Assembly: GCA_903895595.1 (NCBI GenBank) | Contig: CAITUP010000016.1 | Coordinates: forward strand, 124,001-188,000 | Direction of reading: 5' to 3' | Source of the DNA: an uncultured Acetobacteraceae bacterium | GTDB taxonomy: Bacteria > Pseudomonadota > Alphaproteobacteria > Acetobacterales > Acetobacteraceae | DNA length: 64,000 nucleotides | Shown here: positions 25,391-52,164 of the stretch, in pieces | Layout: the number at the start of each line of letters is the position of its first letter | Numbering within the stretch: the stretch's first letter is position 1 | Translations under genes and position numbers: made by a program | The notes under the pieces: model-generated | Database searches by the model: none | Seen by the model: only the letters and a program-made list of their open reading frames with translations | What the model was told of the DNA's origin: nothing

Positions 25391-25424
25391 AGCCTTGCTC
25401 CGCACCCACCTACCCCCTAACCGG

Positions 25425-25440
25425 TTAACAAACCGTTAAC
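25425..25440 (+). promoter_or_regulatory. Putative CtrA-binding box upstream of gcv operon
   Basis: TTAACAAACCGTTAAC fits the established CtrA consensus TTAA-N7-TTAAC exactly. It lies about 70 bases before the riboswitch and about 300 bases before the gcvT start, so near the likely gcv promoter. The match is to a short motif; binding is inferred. Confidence 0.5.
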
Positions 25441-34203: not shown

Positions 34204-35168
34204 GCCTCCTGGAAGTCCGCAATCTGACAACCGCCTTCCAGACCGGCCGCGGCGAAATCACGGCGGTCGAGGACGTGTCGTTCGACCTCAACGAAGGCGA
34301 AATCCTGGGCATCGTCGGCGAATCCGGCAGCGGCAAAAGCGTCACCGCGCTGACGATCATGGGCCTGCTGCCCCGCCCGCCGGCCAGGGTCGCGACCGGG
34401 TCCGTGCATTTCGCCGGCGAAAACCTGACCAACCTGTCCGACAGCCGCATGCAGCACATTCGCGGCCCCGGCATCGCGATGGTGTTTCAAGAGCCGATGA
34501 CGTCGCTCAATCCGGTCTTCACCATCGGCGACCAGATCATGGAAACCATCGCCGCGCACGAACGCCTGCCGCAACGCGCGCTGTTCGCACGCGCGGTGGA
34601 GATGCTGGAGAAGGTCGGCATCGCCTCGGCCGCGACGCGAATGGCTGACTATCCGCACCAGCTCTCCGGCGGGCAACGCCAGCGGGTAATGCTGGCCATC
34701 GCACTGGTCTGCCGCCCCAAGCTGCTGATCGCCGATGAGCCGACGACAGCGCTGGACGTGACGATCCAAGCGCAAATCCTCGATCTGCTGCTGGACCTGC
34801 GCGATGAGTTCGGCATGGCGATCATGCTGATCACCCACAACATGGGCGTGATCGCGGAAACCGCCGACCGGGTGATCGTGATGTATGCCGGGCGGATCGT
34901 CGAGGAAGCGCCGGTCGCGACGTTGTTCGACTCGCCGCGCCATCCCTACACACGCGGCCTGCTGGAATGCGTACCGTCGCTGATAACCGAACGCGACCGC
35001 CTGATCGCCATTCCCGGCACCCTGCCCGAACCGATCCGACGCCCGCCGGGTTGCCGTTTCGCGCCACGCTGCCGGTTTGCTCAACCGGACTGCGCCGCTG
35101 GGATTCCGCCGCTGCTGCGCCTGGCCCCAGGCCACACCGCCGCCTGCATCCACATCCCGGAGCAATGA
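34200..35168 (+). CDS. Peptide ABC transporter ATP-binding protein (DppD type)
   Basis: ATPase subunit, 322 residues. Walker A GESGSGKS is at 40-47, the Q-loop lies in [11 protein letters not shown], the signature in [15 protein letters not shown], and Walker B in [12 protein letters not shown]. The C-terminal oligopeptide-transporter extension has HPYTRGL then a Cys cluster [14 protein letters not shown]. The GTG at 34200 overlaps the DppC stop by four bases. It works with the DppF-type subunit as a heterodimer. Confidence 0.95.
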
Positions 35169-36142
35169 CCGTGCTGATCGAAGCGACAGGGGTCAGCAAG
35201 CATTATCCGGTGGAAACCGGTGGGATGTTCCGCCGCACGACCACGCCTTTACGCGCGGTCGACAACGTGTCGCTGTCCGTCGAGGAAGGGGAAACCCTCG
35301 GGTTGGTGGGGGAATCCGGTTGTGGCAAGTCCACGTTGGGACGGCTTCTGATCAGGTTGCTGCCGGCCACCGCGGGCAACATCCGGTTCGGCGGCACCGA
35401 CATCACCGCGCTCGGCGGCCAGCCGTTGCGAAACGTGCGCCGGTCGATGCAGATCGTCTTCCAGGACCCGTACGGCGCGCTCAATCCGCGCATGACGGTG
35501 GAAGACATCGTCATGGAGCCGTTGCTGATCCACGGCGCCAAACCCAACGCGGACAGCCGCGCCCAAGTGTCGGACATGCTGTCCCGCGTGGGCCTCCCCG
35601 CTCGGGCGTTGGAGCGGTTTCCGCACGAATTCTCCGGCGGCCAGCGCCAGCGCATCGGCATCGCGCGCGCTTTGATCCTGCGACCGCGCTTCGTGGTGTG
35701 CGATGAGCCGGTATCGGCGCTGGACGTGTCGGTGCAGGCGCAGATCGTCAATCTGCTCCAGGACCTGCAGGCGGAGCTGGGGTTGACCTATCTGTTCATC
35801 GCTCACGATCTGGGCGTGGTGAAGCACATCTCCACCCGGGTCGCGGTGATGTATCTTGGGAAGATCGTGGAGGTCGCGGAAAAGCGGGCGTTGTACGCGG
35901 AGCCGCGTCACCCTTATACGCGGGGCCTGATCGCCTCCGTCCCGGTGACCCATCCCAGCCAGCGGGCTCGCGGACGCGCCGAACGGCAGCGGCTGGAGGG
36001 GGATATTCCCAGCGCGCTGAATCCTCCTTCGGGGTGCCGGTTTCACACGCGCTGCCCGTTGGTGCAGCCGATCTGCCGGGAACAGGAGCCGGCGACGCGG
36101 GAACCGGCCGCCGGGCATCTTGTCGCGTGCCATCTGGCATGA
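35165..36142 (+). CDS. Peptide ABC transporter ATP-binding protein (DppF type)
   Basis: Second ATPase, 325 residues. Walker A GESGCGKS is at 49-56, signature FSGGQRQRIGIARAL near 158, Walker B FVVCDEPVSALD near 178, and the oligopeptide signature HPYTRGL near 260. The C-terminal Cys cluster is GCRFHTRCPLVQPIC. ATG at 35165 overlaps the DppD stop by four bases. The operon ends here, and no periplasmic binding-protein gene occurs on either side, so the transporter must borrow one from elsewhere. Confidence 0.95.
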   Translation: MTVLIEATGVSKHYPVETGGMFRRTTTPLRAVDNVSLSVEEGETLGLVGESGCGKSTLGRLLIRLLPATAGNIRFGGTDITALGGQPLRNVRRSMQIVFQDPYGALNPRMTVEDIVMEPLLIHGAKPNADSRAQVSDMLSRVGLPARALERFPHEFSGGQRQRIGIARALILRPRFVVCDEPVSALDVSVQAQIVNLLQDLQAELGLTYLFIAHDLGVVKHISTRVAVMYLGKIVEVAEKRALYAEPRHPYTRGLIASVPVTHPSQRARGRAERQRLEGDIPSALNPPSGCRFHTRCPLVQPICREQEPATREPAAGHLVACHLA

Positions 36143-36170
36143 AACGCCGCCGCTACCGCACCATCGTGTA

Positions 36171-36381
36171 GACGATAGTGTCAGGGGGATCGCATATGGC
36201 GGATTTCCGACACTTTCCGTCATGGTCGGGCCTGACCCGACCATCTCACGCCAATGGGGCACCGTTCGAAGAACCCTGCCTTTTCAATGGTGCGTAAAAT
36301 CGCAGGAGATGGCCGGGTCACGCCCGACCATGACGAGCGGGGGCGCCAAAGGTCATATGCGATAGCCCTGACGATAGTGTC
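36171..36381. mobile_element. MITE-like nested palindromic element with flanking direct repeats
   Basis: The element lies in the 317-base gap between the peptide transporter and the CtrA-like gene. A 12-base direct repeat GACGATAGTGTC occurs at 36171-36182 and 36370-36381. Inside are terminal inverted repeats: AGGGGGATCGCATATG (36183-36198) against AGGGCTATCGCATATG (reverse complement of 36354-36369), 14 of 16 matching. Further in, a 29-base arm (36219-36247) pairs with 36306-36334, and the left arm is itself a perfect 9-bp hairpin (ATGGTCGGG-CCTGA-CCCGACCAT). No coding capacity. This looks like a non-autonomous miniature element with target-site duplication, or a REP-type composite. The rest of the gap (36382-36459) must hold the promoter of the CtrA-like gene. 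Confidence 0.7.
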
Positions 36382-36459
36382 GGTCCAAGGTGGAGTCAGC
36401 CGGGAAACCTGCTATGGGGACCGTATACAGTATTCAGGACAGCGACAGGGATTCCGTCC

Positions 36460-37173
36460 ATGCTGATCTTACGGGTTGGACTGGCGGTCGTCAGCCATCG
36501 GGACAATGAGGCCAAAGTGCTGCACCAGCACGGCATTAAGATGGAACAGGCCTTGTCTGGCCATGAGGCCCTCGATTTCATGCGTTTGTACGACTTCGAA
36601 CTGGTCCTGATGGATGCCGCTTTACCCGGTCAGCGGGGCGAGGACGTCGTGCGTCAGGCGCGCGCCGCCGGGCTGACCACGCCTCTGATCCTGCTCACGG
36701 CGGACTCCGCGCCAGCGGGTCGTACCAAAGCGCTCGATCAGGGTGCGGACGATGTCGTCACCACGCCGTGCGACATCGAGGAACTGCTCGCGCGTATACG
36801 AGCGGTGGTACGCCGTTCGGCTGGCCATGCCCGTTCGGTGATACAGGCCGGATGTGTGGAGCTCAGTCTGGACAAGCGGGAGGTTGTCGTCGGCGGCAAG
36901 AAATTACGGGTGTCCCCGCGTGAGTACGGCGTGCTGGAACTGTTGTTTCTGAAGCAGGGCACGGTGCTGAACAAGGCGGCCTTTCTGCATCATCTTTATA
37001 CCGGGGCGGACGAGCCGGAATTGAAGGCGGTCGACGTCATCGTCTGCCGGTTGCGCAAGAAGCTGGAGCGGCATGGCGTCGGCTCGCTGGTCGATACCGT
37101 CCGGGGCGTTGGCTATATCCTCCGCGCACCCGTGGCGCCCGGCCCCAACCCAGAACTGCCTTTGGTCGCGTGA
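36460..37173 (+). CDS. CtrA-family response regulator with degenerate receiver
   Basis: OmpR/CtrA-type regulator, 237 residues. The C-terminal winged helix is strongly CtrA-like: GHARSVIQAG-VELSLDKREVVV, then SPREYGVLELLFLKQGTVLNK, FLHHLYTGADEPELKAVDVI and CRLRKKLERHGV, followed by a GVGYILR end. The N-terminal receiver keeps the phospho-acceptor position D52 (LVLMDAALPG) and T80. It has lost the acidic metal-binding pair (the usual IEDD reads VVSHRD) and the invariant lysine (TKP is TTP, T102). It may work without phosphorylation. This is a paralog; the canonical ctrA would lie elsewhere. Its stop overlaps the next gene by four bases, so a regulator and a transglycosylase are translated together. 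Confidence 0.85.
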   Translation: MLILRVGLAVVSHRDNEAKVLHQHGIKMEQALSGHEALDFMRLYDFELVLMDAALPGQRGEDVVRQARAAGLTTPLILLTADSAPAGRTKALDQGADDVVTTPCDIEELLARIRAVVRRSAGHARSVIQAGCVELSLDKREVVVGGKKLRVSPREYGVLELLFLKQGTVLNKAAFLHHLYTGADEPELKAVDVIVCRLRKKLERHGVGSLVDTVRGVGYILRAPVAPGPNPELPLVA

Positions 37174-37859
37174 GCGCGTTCGGGCGCTTTGTTGCCTTTG
37201 GCCTGATAGTCGCGGCCGGATCGGCCAGCGCGGCTGCCACCTGCGAGGAGGCCGCGGCCGAAGCCGAACGCAGCTTCGGCCTTCCACCTGGCTTGCTGAC
37301 GGCGATCGGCCGGGTGGAGAGCGGGCGCCTCGATCCTGCCACCCGGCGGGTTGTAGCGTGGCCTTGGACCATCGATGTCGCTGGCGATGGCCGCATGTTC
37401 AATAACGCGGCGGAGGCGATCCGGACGACCGAAGCCCTGCGCACTGGCGGCGCTCGCAACATCGATGTCGGGTGCTTCCAGGTCAGCCTGCTGTATCACC
37501 CGAACGCGTTCGCGACGATGGCGGAGGCTTTCGATCCCACGACCAACGGCCGCTACGCCGGACAATTCCTGGCATCCTTGAAAGCCCGTTTGGGCAACTG
37601 GACCGACGCCGTGGCCGCCTACCACTCCGCCGATCCGGCTCAGGGCAAACCCTATCAAGAGAAGGTCTTCGCCAGCTGGCACGGCACGCTCCCGCCTGAG
37701 GCCGAGGTGTCCGCGAAGTTCGGCCTCACCGAACTTGCGTTCGGCATTAAGCTGTGGACGCCGAGCCAACCGGGGACGGCGGCGTCGGTCATTCATATCG
37801 GGGAAGGGGAGGCGCCCGCGGCGTGGAAGATGCCGCGGGTGACCAGTCCGGGGCGTTAG
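37170..37859 (+). CDS. Lytic transglycosylase (SLT domain)
   Basis: Secreted muramidase-like enzyme, 229 residues, expected to cleave peptidoglycan glycan strands. A signal peptide covers about residues 1-22 (FVAFGLIVAAGSASAAA). The catalytic glutamate is E50 in LLTAIGRVESGR, and the SLT core continues with the aromatic PWTIDV, NIDVGCFQVSLLYHP near 96 and AAYHSADPAQGKPYQEKV near 150. Two cysteines (C25, C101) could pair. The C-terminal 50 residues are unassigned. The start is GTG at 37170, overlapping the regulator stop by four bases. The stop overlaps the convergent neighbour by four bases. Confidence 0.88.
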   Translation: MSAFGRFVAFGLIVAAGSASAAATCEEAAAEAERSFGLPPGLLTAIGRVESGRLDPATRRVVAWPWTIDVAGDGRMFNNAAEAIRTTEALRTGGARNIDVGCFQVSLLYHPNAFATMAEAFDPTTNGRYAGQFLASLKARLGNWTDAVAAYHSADPAQGKPYQEKVFASWHGTLPPEAEVSAKFGLTELAFGIKLWTPSQPGTAASVIHIGEGEAPAAWKMPRVTSPGR

Positions 37860-39406
37860 TGCTTGCTCCAATCGGATACAAACCGAGCATAACAATCCCG
37901 TTCGCCCGGCATCTTCGGCCAGCCCGCCAACTGGCGCACCGCGGCGATCAGCAGATTGTCCTTCGAATGCGTGCTGTTGTTCTCGTATTCCTCGTAGGAG
38001 GAATGCGTGATCTTCTGGTTATGCGGATCGTCCTGGAACTTGCATGCCGTCAGCGCCACGGTTTCCATATACGCCCGCCGGTCCGCGCCAGACTGCAAGT
38101 AGGCATGCGCGGTCGCGGTGCTGCCGGCGATATCGAACGACATGATCGACTCATCCAATTGCTTCAGCAGCGCGGCGGGGGAGCGGCCGGCGCCGTCGAA
38201 GCCCTTGATCTCGTCCCCGATCACCGATGTGGTCCATTTGTTGGCCCGCGACGAGTCGTTGACGAAATTGGCCATCAGGAACAGCACGCGGTGCTGGTAC
38301 GGGCTGGTGCCGCCGCGGATCCAGTGGTTGGCGGTGTTGCAATAGTCGTAGGGGTGCTGCCCGTCGGTGAACTTCCGGGGCACCGTGTTGCGCAGGATCA
38401 GTTCGGCGGCGCCGATCTGGATGGCATCGCCCAGGCTGCGGATCGAAATACCGTTCTTCAGATGCGCGACGATCTGGTCGGACACCTGCTGCCCGTCGCC
38501 GCACATCAGAACTTCGACAAACGCATCGACCTCGACCGGGGTCAGCGGGGTTTTGTTGTCCTCCCGCAGGCTTTTGCCGCCATCTGGGAAGGCTTCGGCC
38601 AGGATCACGCAGACGGAGTCGTAGAACGAGTAATACAGCGGTCCCACCGCCATGTCCGGCACGCCGGTGTAGAACACGCCATGCGCGTTATCCCAGCCGA
38701 CATAATCCGCCAGCCCGGTGATCGCCCGTGCCCGCAGCGCCTTGTGGCCGGTGTTGCGCGCCTTGCGCCCGGCGATCGTGTCCTGAATGTCGATGAGCCC
38801 GAGGAAATTGATTTGGTCGCGCAGTTTGTCCCGAGCCTCGGGATCGGCGGCAAGATCGAGGAACATGCCGTAGGAGCGTTCCACCTCCCCGCCCATGGTC
38901 GCGAGCATATGCGCTTGTAGGCGTTCGTCGATCGTATTGCCCTCGCGCAGCGGCGCCTGATCCTGGTTCCACACCACGGGGCCGTAATCCGGCGGCGGCA
39001 CGTTCATGCCCTTCATGGTGGCGTAGCGTCCGGGATACTTGCCCAGCAGTTGGTTCCAGATATCCAAACCGGCGGGGATGTACCAGATGCTCTGCAGGAA
39101 GGGCAGGAGCTGGTTTTCCTTCGACAGGTACGGCATCAGCGCGGCGGAGGTGCGCATTCCCAGGATCGTGTGATCGTTGTTGATCAGCACGAGCTGCCCG
39201 TCTTTGACGTTGATATGGTTGGGCACCTGCACGAACGGCGCCTCGGCTTCCATGACGACGCTGACGGCCTCGGGGATCGAGCGCCCTTCCTTTTTCACCA
39301 TACGGAAGAAGGTATCGGCGGTGCGCGCTTGGTCGCGTTCGAGGATGGCGGTCGTGAGTTCCTGAAACGCTGCGTCCTGACGCACGGCTTGCTGGGTCTG
39401 CAACAT
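37856..39406 (-). CDS. Conserved-looking protein of unknown function, 516 residues
   Basis: No family recognised. The protein has no signal peptide or clear membrane helix, so it is probably cytoplasmic. It begins with a charged helical region (TTAILERDQARTADTFFRMVKKEG) and then has histidine- and aromatic-rich blocks: FVQVPNHINVKDG, LVLINNDHTILGMRTSAAL, YIPAGLDIWNQLLGKYPGRY and AITGLADYVGWDNAHGVFYTG. Later come GDAIQIGAAELILRN and HPYDYCNTANHWIRGG, a possible metal- or haem-binding cluster (H, D, Y, C, H). A questin-oxidase-like alpha-helical oxidoreductase was considered, but the similarity is too weak. The start ATG at 39406 has GGGAGG seven bases upstream. Codon use matches neighbours. 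Confidence 0.75.
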   Translation of the reverse strand: MLQTQQAVRQDAAFQELTTAILERDQARTADTFFRMVKKEGRSIPEAVSVVMEAEAPFVQVPNHINVKDGQLVLINNDHTILGMRTSAALMPYLSKENQLLPFLQSIWYIPAGLDIWNQLLGKYPGRYATMKGMNVPPPDYGPVVWNQDQAPLREGNTIDERLQAHMLATMGGEVERSYGMFLDLAADPEARDKLRDQINFLGLIDIQDTIAGRKARNTGHKALRARAITGLADYVGWDNAHGVFYTGVPDMAVGPLYYSFYDSVCVILAEAFPDGGKSLREDNKTPLTPVEVDAFVEVLMCGDGQQVSDQIVAHLKNGISIRSLGDAIQIGAAELILRNTVPRKFTDGQHPYDYCNTANHWIRGGTSPYQHRVLFLMANFVNDSSRANKWTTSVIGDEIKGFDGAGRSPAALLKQLDESIMSFDIAGSTATAHAYLQSGADRRAYMETVALTACKFQDDPHNQKITHSSYEEYENNSTHSKDNLLIAAVRQLAGWPKMPGERDCYARFVSDWSKH

Positions 39407-52043: not shown

Positions 52044-52148
52044 GCCGGGGAAACGGGCGGCGCACCCTATAACTTCGCGTCCACCTCGGCGCAAGCCATG
52101 AACTGCCACGACAGCGCATAGGTGACAGGCGCAGTATTTTGTCCGCCG

Positions 52149-52164
52149 TTAACCTTGGGTTAAC
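52149..52164. promoter_or_regulatory. Putative CtrA-binding box
   Basis: TTAACCTTGGGTTAAC fits the CtrA consensus TTAA-N7-TTAAC exactly and is part of a larger palindrome GTTAACC-TTG-GGTTAAC (52148-52164). It lies between tRNA-Thr (about 105 bases) and the 3' end of frc. Its target could be tRNA-Thr on the minus strand, or a short plus-strand transcript that contains an 11-codon frame (52179-52211) and then a hairpin. Binding is inferred. Confidence 0.45.

Follow-up and report, generated by a model that had tools for sequence, protein, structure and literature searches.

A CtrA-like regulator subfamily with a degenerate receiver domain and its linkage to Tad/Flp pilus genes in relatives of an uncultured Acetobacteraceae bacterium

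The window analyzed here, a stretch of 64,000 nucleotides from an uncultured Acetobacteraceae bacterium (genome G000), contains two overlapping genes, one encoding a response regulator related to CtrA and the other a lytic transglycosylase of the SLT type (Table 1). The regulator has the two domains of an OmpR/PhoB-type response regulator, both above their Pfam cut-offs (Response_reg, 59.5 bits with a cut-off of 30.2; Trans_reg_C, 61.5 with a cut-off of 26.2), and its frame is unbroken across 237 codons with a coding-like composition (GC3 0.75). Its best NCBIfam match is the CtrA equivalog model NF045991, which it matches below the cut-off, at 212.8 of 350 bits, and which is a strict test because the name of the model points to the Rhodobacter group. 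The DNA-binding half is 52% identical to that of the CtrA from the same genome over residues 121-222, and its recognition helix is nearly identical. The downstream ORF scores 26.8 bits for Pfam SLT (cut-off 21.3), and the regulator stop and the SLT start share the four bases GTGA (37170-37173). The first-pass annotation, made from the letters of the window, had described a CtrA paralog with a pseudo-receiver—lacking the acidic pair and the lysine (T102) but keeping D52 and T80—whose gene overlaps an SLT gene by four bases. All of this was borne out by the Pfam matches, by the CtrA-type DNA-binding half, by the alignment with the CtrA of the same genome and by the residue comparison presented below. 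Structural and wider searches added little: a single-sequence AlphaFold model had a mean pLDDT of 36, too low for use, the SLT protein had 0 matches to solved structures, and a contig scan of the genome collection for the locus returned one unrelated match only, to an Eubacteriales record (33%).

Table 1. Positions in the window of the genes, codons and sites discussed in the text
Feature	Position	Strand	Remarks
Palindromic TTAAC-N6-GTTAA site	25424..25440	.	Precedes a minus-strand ORF by ~54 bp
Second palindromic TTAAC-N6-GTTAA site	52148..52164	.	Between convergent ORFs
dpp-type ABC transporter ATPase gene	34967..36142	+	Upstream of the regulator; locus marker in relatives (69-79% identity in L286-L289, L089, L086, L043)
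Repeat element	36171..36381	.	Between dppF and regulator; imperfect inverted repeat (~36180-36372), perfect 12-bp flanking direct repeat
Pseudo-receiver CtrA paralog, 237 aa	36460..37173	+	ATG start; ORF call, Pfam, alignments
Codon of G7, first of the acidic pair (canonical CtrA: E)	36478..36480	+	G in 32/32 pseudo-CtrA, E in 45/45 canonical CtrA
Codon of D52, retained phospho-acceptor position	36613..36615	+	D in 31/32 pseudo-CtrA
Codon of T102, lysine position	36763..36765	+	No K in 32/32 pseudo-CtrA, R in 2
Codon of C104 (K+2), where Cys invariably replaces Phe/Tyr	36769..36771	+	C in 32/32 pseudo-CtrA
SLT-type lytic transglycosylase, 229 aa	37170..37859	+	GTG start; Pfam; N-terminal hydrophobic segment
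Conserved downstream neighbour	37856..39406	-	No Pfam family; 76-80% identity, same place in L286-L289 (four related genomes)

The receiver of this regulator departs from that of canonical CtrA at defined positions. Alignment with the CtrA from the same genome, which requires one single-residue gap in the receiver, places G7-L8-A9 under E7-D8-D9 and T102 under the lysine. We compared 32 pseudo-CtrA with 45 canonical CtrA sequences, the canonical rows of G004, G006, G015 and G028 being left out; the members had mostly been collected through matches, or a profile built from matches, that start at residue 1, which favours a shared N terminus. At the second acidic position (8), Glu or Asp is found in 10 of the 32 pseudo-CtrA, whereas the canonical proteins have Asp (32), Glu (6) or Pro/Gly/Asn (7). 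The phospho-Asp position is Asp in all pseudo-CtrA but one, which has Arg, and Asp (37), Glu (7) or Ala (1) in canonical CtrA, while the Thr/Ser position, which is Ser in 45/45 canonical proteins, is Thr or Ser in 19/32. The lysine (39 Lys and 6 Arg in canonical CtrA) is replaced by Thr, Gln, Ala, Val, Leu, Ser or Gly, or by Arg in the two cases listed in Table 1. At K+2, where canonical CtrA has Phe (27) or Tyr (18), the Cys of the pseudo-CtrA is as constant as the losses. Since G7-L8-A9 aligns with E7-D8-D9 and position 7 is invariably Gly, a mere shift of the acidic pair is ruled out, even if position 8 is still acidic in 10 of the 32. The regulator falls within a published definition of pseudo-receivers, in which a receiver is recognised but key catalytic residues are missing (PMC12632262). 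Judged by its sequence, it is a member of a distinct CtrA-related subfamily, and phosphorylation of its switch domain is probably no longer possible.

Some proteins outside the subfamily are also unusual. Seven CtrAs of other genera (L061, L062, L065 and L068 in genus g74; L069, L071 and L078 in genus g43) have Glu at the phospho-Asp position, Pro, Gly or Asn at the second acidic position and, in 6/7, Arg for Lys; each of these genomes has one match (E 1e-45, best 11 candidates scored), and these Glu-type proteins are possibly always-on main CtrAs. The canonical CtrA (L037) of G021, a genome without pseudo-CtrA, has Ala at the phospho-Asp position, which a sequencing or alignment artefact could explain. 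A further CtrA-like protein with an odd receiver start, L276 (G027:C130:6229-6837), scored 213 bits, and its genome was counted as lacking the subfamily.

Whether a canonical ctrA exists elsewhere in the genome, a question raised by the first-pass annotation, has a clear answer. G000 (5.46 Mb in 170 contigs) encodes one at C75:82306-82950, which is 46% identical to the regulator and reads EDD, D, S and K-P-F, and this rules out the window gene as the sole CtrA of the genome. Using a profile of 22 rows (A1), we found subfamily members in 19 of the 33 genomes of the genus. The scores are 304-403 bits for main copies and 270 bits for one copy cut by a contig end, while G010 and G011 each have a second pseudo-CtrA (L274 and L275) scoring 277 and 287 bits. 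Since canonical CtrAs score up to 282 bits against the same profile, overlapping with these second copies, a clean split by score is refuted and membership was decided by residues. Of 397 genomes in the family sample, 16 have a member (profile, E 1e-87), as do at least 5 of its 102 genera; these are lower bounds because weaker-scoring members are missed and scoring covered the best six candidates of each genome. Among the 385 genomes of a class sample, which includes few genomes of the family, only the window gene exceeded 270 bits among the candidates scored, at most seven per genome. No canonical CtrA match was obtained in four genomes with a pseudo-CtrA (G010, G011, G018 and G019; completeness 94, 86, 91 and 68%, respectively), which incomplete assemblies may explain.

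In many relatives, the regulator gene is found among genes for Tad pili. Ten flp genes of the genus lie within 15 kb of a regulator gene on the same contig, which places the regulator within Tad loci in these genomes. At L089, Pfam identifies Flp_Fap, Peptidase_A24, RcpC, Secretin, TadE and GT87 around the regulator, together with a sub-threshold CpaD and a NarL-type regulator; TadE near the regulator was likewise confirmed by Pfam in L094 and L096, and TadE/TadG-like ORFs were seen by eye in G010, G018 and G019. The same dpp genes as in the window occur on one side of the regulator in G032, G001 and G019, and in G032 the flp-cpa genes occupy the other side. There is no flp match on the regulator contig in G000, G022 and G024, the contig of G022 ending ~1 kb downstream, and inspection by eye revealed no tad gene around the regulator in G083, G051 and G141, which are outside the genus. 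Short contigs or the lack of any flp match prevent judgement of flp linkage in G001, G006, G010, G018, G019 and G029. Two other elements recur near the regulator. A NarL/LuxR-type response-regulator gene, identified by Pfam in L089, was also seen by eye in L093, L086, L043, L087 and L175. Palindromic TGGCCA/GGCCTA elements were noticed by eye within ~150 bp upstream of the regulator in L013-L019, L043, L056, L175 and L238-L240. These palindromes and the NarL/LuxR-type gene might form a control circuit.

The pairing with the SLT gene, whose conservation in related genomes the first-pass annotation had proposed to verify, is widely maintained. An SLT gene directly follows the regulator in 26 of the 29 members with enough downstream sequence, a count that leaves out G001, G019 and G089, where contigs end too soon; it is absent behind the regulator in G083 and behind the second copies of G010 and G011. 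In 9 of 24 pairs inspected, an in-frame SLT start overlaps the regulator stop by 1 or 4 bp. In SLT lytic transglycosylases, the Glu of an ESG-type motif has a catalytic role, and the Glu of the corresponding (V/A)E(S/T) motif is present in 24/24 aligned sequences, two of which are cut by contig ends. SLT-like genes also occur at Tad loci more generally: 19 of 75 flp matches have one within 15 kb, for 1.5 expected from the number of SLT genes per genome. Ten of these 19 flp genes are linked to the regulator, and the other nine (of 65 unlinked) are at seven loci without it (L293-L299). The SLT gene overlaps a Tad-domain (TadE/G-like) gene at L293 and L298 and a TPR gene at L299, and at L295 it comes after an ORF downstream of a sub-threshold TadE. 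From this linkage, we infer that the SLT enzyme serves the pilus. The general connection between the regulator and cell-wall hydrolysis drawn by the first-pass annotation is therefore better read as a connection to the Tad pilus, in view of the SLT genes at seven Tad loci that have no regulator.

A candidate operator further connects the subfamily to flp. A direct repeat with an 11-bp period, GGTT-N7-GGTTTCA, precedes the regulator gene in G001, G004, G019, G029, G032 and G039 and has 10 or 11 of the 11 consensus bases there. We scored flp promoters for a box with at least 9/11 matches at -140 to -105 on the strand opposite to flp, using a pattern that was fixed before scoring, although three promoters (L083, L089 and L094), two of which belong to the ten linked flp genes, had been seen earlier. 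The 71 flp genes scored correspond to the 75 matches minus the two weakest and two with <150 bp upstream. The box was present at 8/10 linked flp genes, at 6/35 unlinked flp genes in genomes with the regulator, and at 2/26 in genomes without it, both of which read GGCT for GGTT. The comparison of linked flp genes with genomes without regulator gives p = 6e-5, and that of all regulator genomes with those without gives p = 0.04, but both tests ignore relatedness, and the counts are not independent because the genomes are related. In each of seven control windows, the box was found at 0/10 linked flp genes, and at 0 to 4/35 and 0 to 1/26 of the others. Among spacings from 7 to 16 at linked flp genes, 11 is the most frequent (8/10), the next reaching 4/10. 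The two linked flp genes without box are those of G009 (7/11) and G015 (8/11). The box search also pointed to a regulator in G007 that the first cut-off had overlooked. At the regulator's own promoter, the box (at least 9/11) is present in 6/28 only, and a spacing of 10 also gives 6, which suggests that autoregulation through it would be weaker than first thought.

The copy in the window stands apart from Tad genes. In G000, flp is on C18 and C91, RcpC on C91 and TadE on C156, and none of these genes is on C16, the contig of the regulator, which is thus not linked to a Tad locus. The box is absent from the promoter of the regulator and from those of both flp genes of this genome (best match 7/11 each), and no sigma-70-like promoter was found at 36100-37950. 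The repeat element preceding the regulator gene has an inverted self-match of 69% over 196 bp and partial copies elsewhere in the genome (L010, L114, L005 and L111; 93-98% over 63-112 bp). In the same dpp neighbourhood, G012, G013, G021 and G025 have a divergent membrane-protein gene and an SLT gene (61-68% identity) but no regulator, while the window has the regulator and lacks this membrane-protein gene; searches for remnants of the latter upstream of the window regulator, or of the regulator in L286-L289, gave no convincing match. The loss of the gene pair in relatives, which the first-pass annotation had named as evidence against its reading, is thus partly realised: the regulator is absent from these four genomes, but the SLT gene is there.

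The window protein has also diverged. In a tree built without outgroup—and without L043 (at a contig end), L046 (on a second contig of G011), L274, L275, L278 and L279—its branch measures 0.53, for 0.03-0.29 in the clade members G031, G028, G006, G032, G029 and G004. The longest branch (0.82) is that of G015, and because this copy is tad-linked, fast change is not peculiar to copies separated from tad. Compared with seven clade members, the window protein is 65-70% identical in the DNA-binding half and 47-57% in the receiver, whereas G028 is 77-96% and 57-90% identical to the other six in the same halves; the idea that drift was restricted to the DNA-binding half was dropped, the receiver having diverged as well. 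The wing motif VWGCGY reads VRGVGY in the window protein, which nevertheless keeps G7, D52, C104 and the helix PELK..DVIVCRLRKKL. Such drift fits relaxed or changed recognition. The window copy may be a Tad-pilus regulator in decay or in re-use, two states that sequence cannot tell apart.

Our preferred explanation, which we believe is slightly likelier to be right than wrong, is that the regulator belongs to a CtrA-like, phosphorylation-independent subfamily typically encoded in Tad/Flp loci, and that the window copy, separated from such loci, is either re-used or decaying. Without the acidic pair and the lysine, the receiver would no longer handle metal and phosphate, and the change from Phe/Tyr to Cys at K+2 would probably favour an always-active, dimer-competent state. 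In CheY, the residue at K+2 biases the protein to inactive states when it is Phe and to active ones when it is Ala, Ile, Leu or Val, and Cys at this position is not mentioned in the section of the review dealing with it (PMC12632262, section 18). The Cys could be an activating substitution or a thiol switch. Output would be set by the amount of protein, or by a partner or thiol chemistry, instead of by a kinase, and the CtrA-like DNA-binding half would read the 11-bp-phased GGTT-N7-GGTTTCA box upstream of flp and also, for some species, upstream of the regulator gene itself. The SLT protein encoded by the coupled gene would be the enzyme with which the Tad locus itself opens the wall for the pilus. 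In the species of the window, relocation or loss of tad at this spot would have stranded the pair next to dpp; the regulator would be re-used or decaying while the SLT gene persists, because the promoters of the regulator and of both flp genes lack the box and the regulator's sequence has drifted. The mechanism most likely for the subfamily, as predicted from these patterns, is an always-active, amount-controlled regulator of flp promoters, in which the invariant Cys may play a part. A bolder version, in which a subfamily working without phosphorylation has its state held or switched through the K+2 Cys and runs a Tad regulon by its own box, with the SLT enzyme as a dedicated Tad peptidoglycan opener, is possible but receives limited credence from us.

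Several alternatives have to be weighed against this explanation. The regulator of the window could be a functionless relic that survives by translational coupling, selection acting only on the SLT gene. This would account for the four genomes that keep SLT in the same dpp neighbourhood without regulator, for the repeat element just upstream and the lack of a sigma-70-like promoter, and for the long end branch with divergence of both halves and of the wing motif; we consider it a rather doubtful possibility nonetheless, since the frame of 237 codons is intact with a GC3 of 0.75 and the hallmark residues and helix have been retained. A phosphorylation-free regulator, for its part, is not required to keep Asp52, and its presence in 31/32 members speaks against that part of our preferred explanation. 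The receiver could instead be a weak but real phospho-switch with a different pocket, in which D52 is phosphorylated or needed. The Thr or Ser at position 80 in 19/32, the acidic residue at position 8 in 10/32 and the two Arg at the lysine position agree with this, as does the literature, according to which receivers keeping the Asp may be inefficient versions, and the Asp of GlnR and RamR has a role in dimerization (PMC12632262). The loss of both the first acidic residue and the lysine in every one of the 32 members makes such a switch quite improbable.

The identity of the protein reading the flp box is a separate matter. It might be canonical CtrA or another OmpR-type protein, with pseudo-CtrA acting as a competitor or a heterodimer partner. 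The helices of pseudo-CtrA and canonical CtrA are close, and the Caulobacter pilin gene pilA is under CtrA control via upstream sites (PMC11264516). However, all ten regulator-free genomes of the box test have a canonical CtrA and yet the box is found in only 2/26 of their flp promoters, while the linked flp gene of G011 has the box (9/11) although this genome (86% complete) gave no canonical CtrA match, so that we deem a canonical reader unlikely. Finally, the first-pass annotation had viewed the regulator as dedicated to cell-wall hydrolysis, through two CtrA-consensus boxes in the window. These boxes do exist: there are two TTAA-N7-TTAAC sites, both palindromic, for 0 expected in shuffled sequence. 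Nothing ties them to the regulator, however, because their distances from it are 11 and 15 kb and two convergent ORFs flank one of them, and we rejected them as its targets on these grounds. While the adjacency of regulator and SLT gene in 26/29 members agrees with a cell-wall regulator, SLT genes are found at Tad loci with or without the regulator, and we regard this view as very improbable.

Comparison with known systems helps to situate our preferred reading of the subfamily. ChxR, HP1043, JadR1 and Rem are regulators of the OmpR/PhoB fold, and Rem and FtcR are tied to the flagellum, a surface-appendage system. The subfamily resembles ChxR, HP1043, JadR1 and Rem (with MirA, by which this atypical regulator is inhibited) in having a receiver short of catalytic residues, for which phosphorylation-free action is expected (PMC12632262). 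It differs from these atypical regulators in being closest to CtrA, tied to Tad loci and endowed with an invariant Cys at K+2; neither "CtrA" nor "cysteine" was found by a term search of the main text of that review. The parallel with Rem/FtcR, which is one of description rather than of compared sequences, involves a Tad pilus instead of a flagellum. The likeness to Caulobacter-type CtrA extends from domain order, a nearly identical DNA-binding helix and the best NCBIfam match to the pilin gene as a CtrA target (PMC11264516), the counterpart here being the candidate flp box. Unlike CtrA, the regulator lacks the acidic pair and lysine, has the K+2 Cys, is extra to the genome's own CtrA and is not universal. 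The same 2025 review calls switching by pseudo-receivers a mystery (PMC12632262), and the organisms described here offer a natural series in which a working CtrA coexists with a paralog bearing a few defined receiver changes, including the K+2 Cys. As for the partner, it shares with SLT lytic transglycosylases of secretion and pilus systems the Pfam SLT domain, the Glu of a VESG-type motif and an N-terminal hydrophobic segment, and differs in its Tad association: we found no Tad-associated SLT enzyme in the open-licence literature, and a 2025 paper on Tad structure states that no such enzyme had yet been described for this pilus (PMC12307814). How the Tad pilus crosses the cell wall, a question posed in that paper, is now directly testable because several Tad loci carry an SLT gene.
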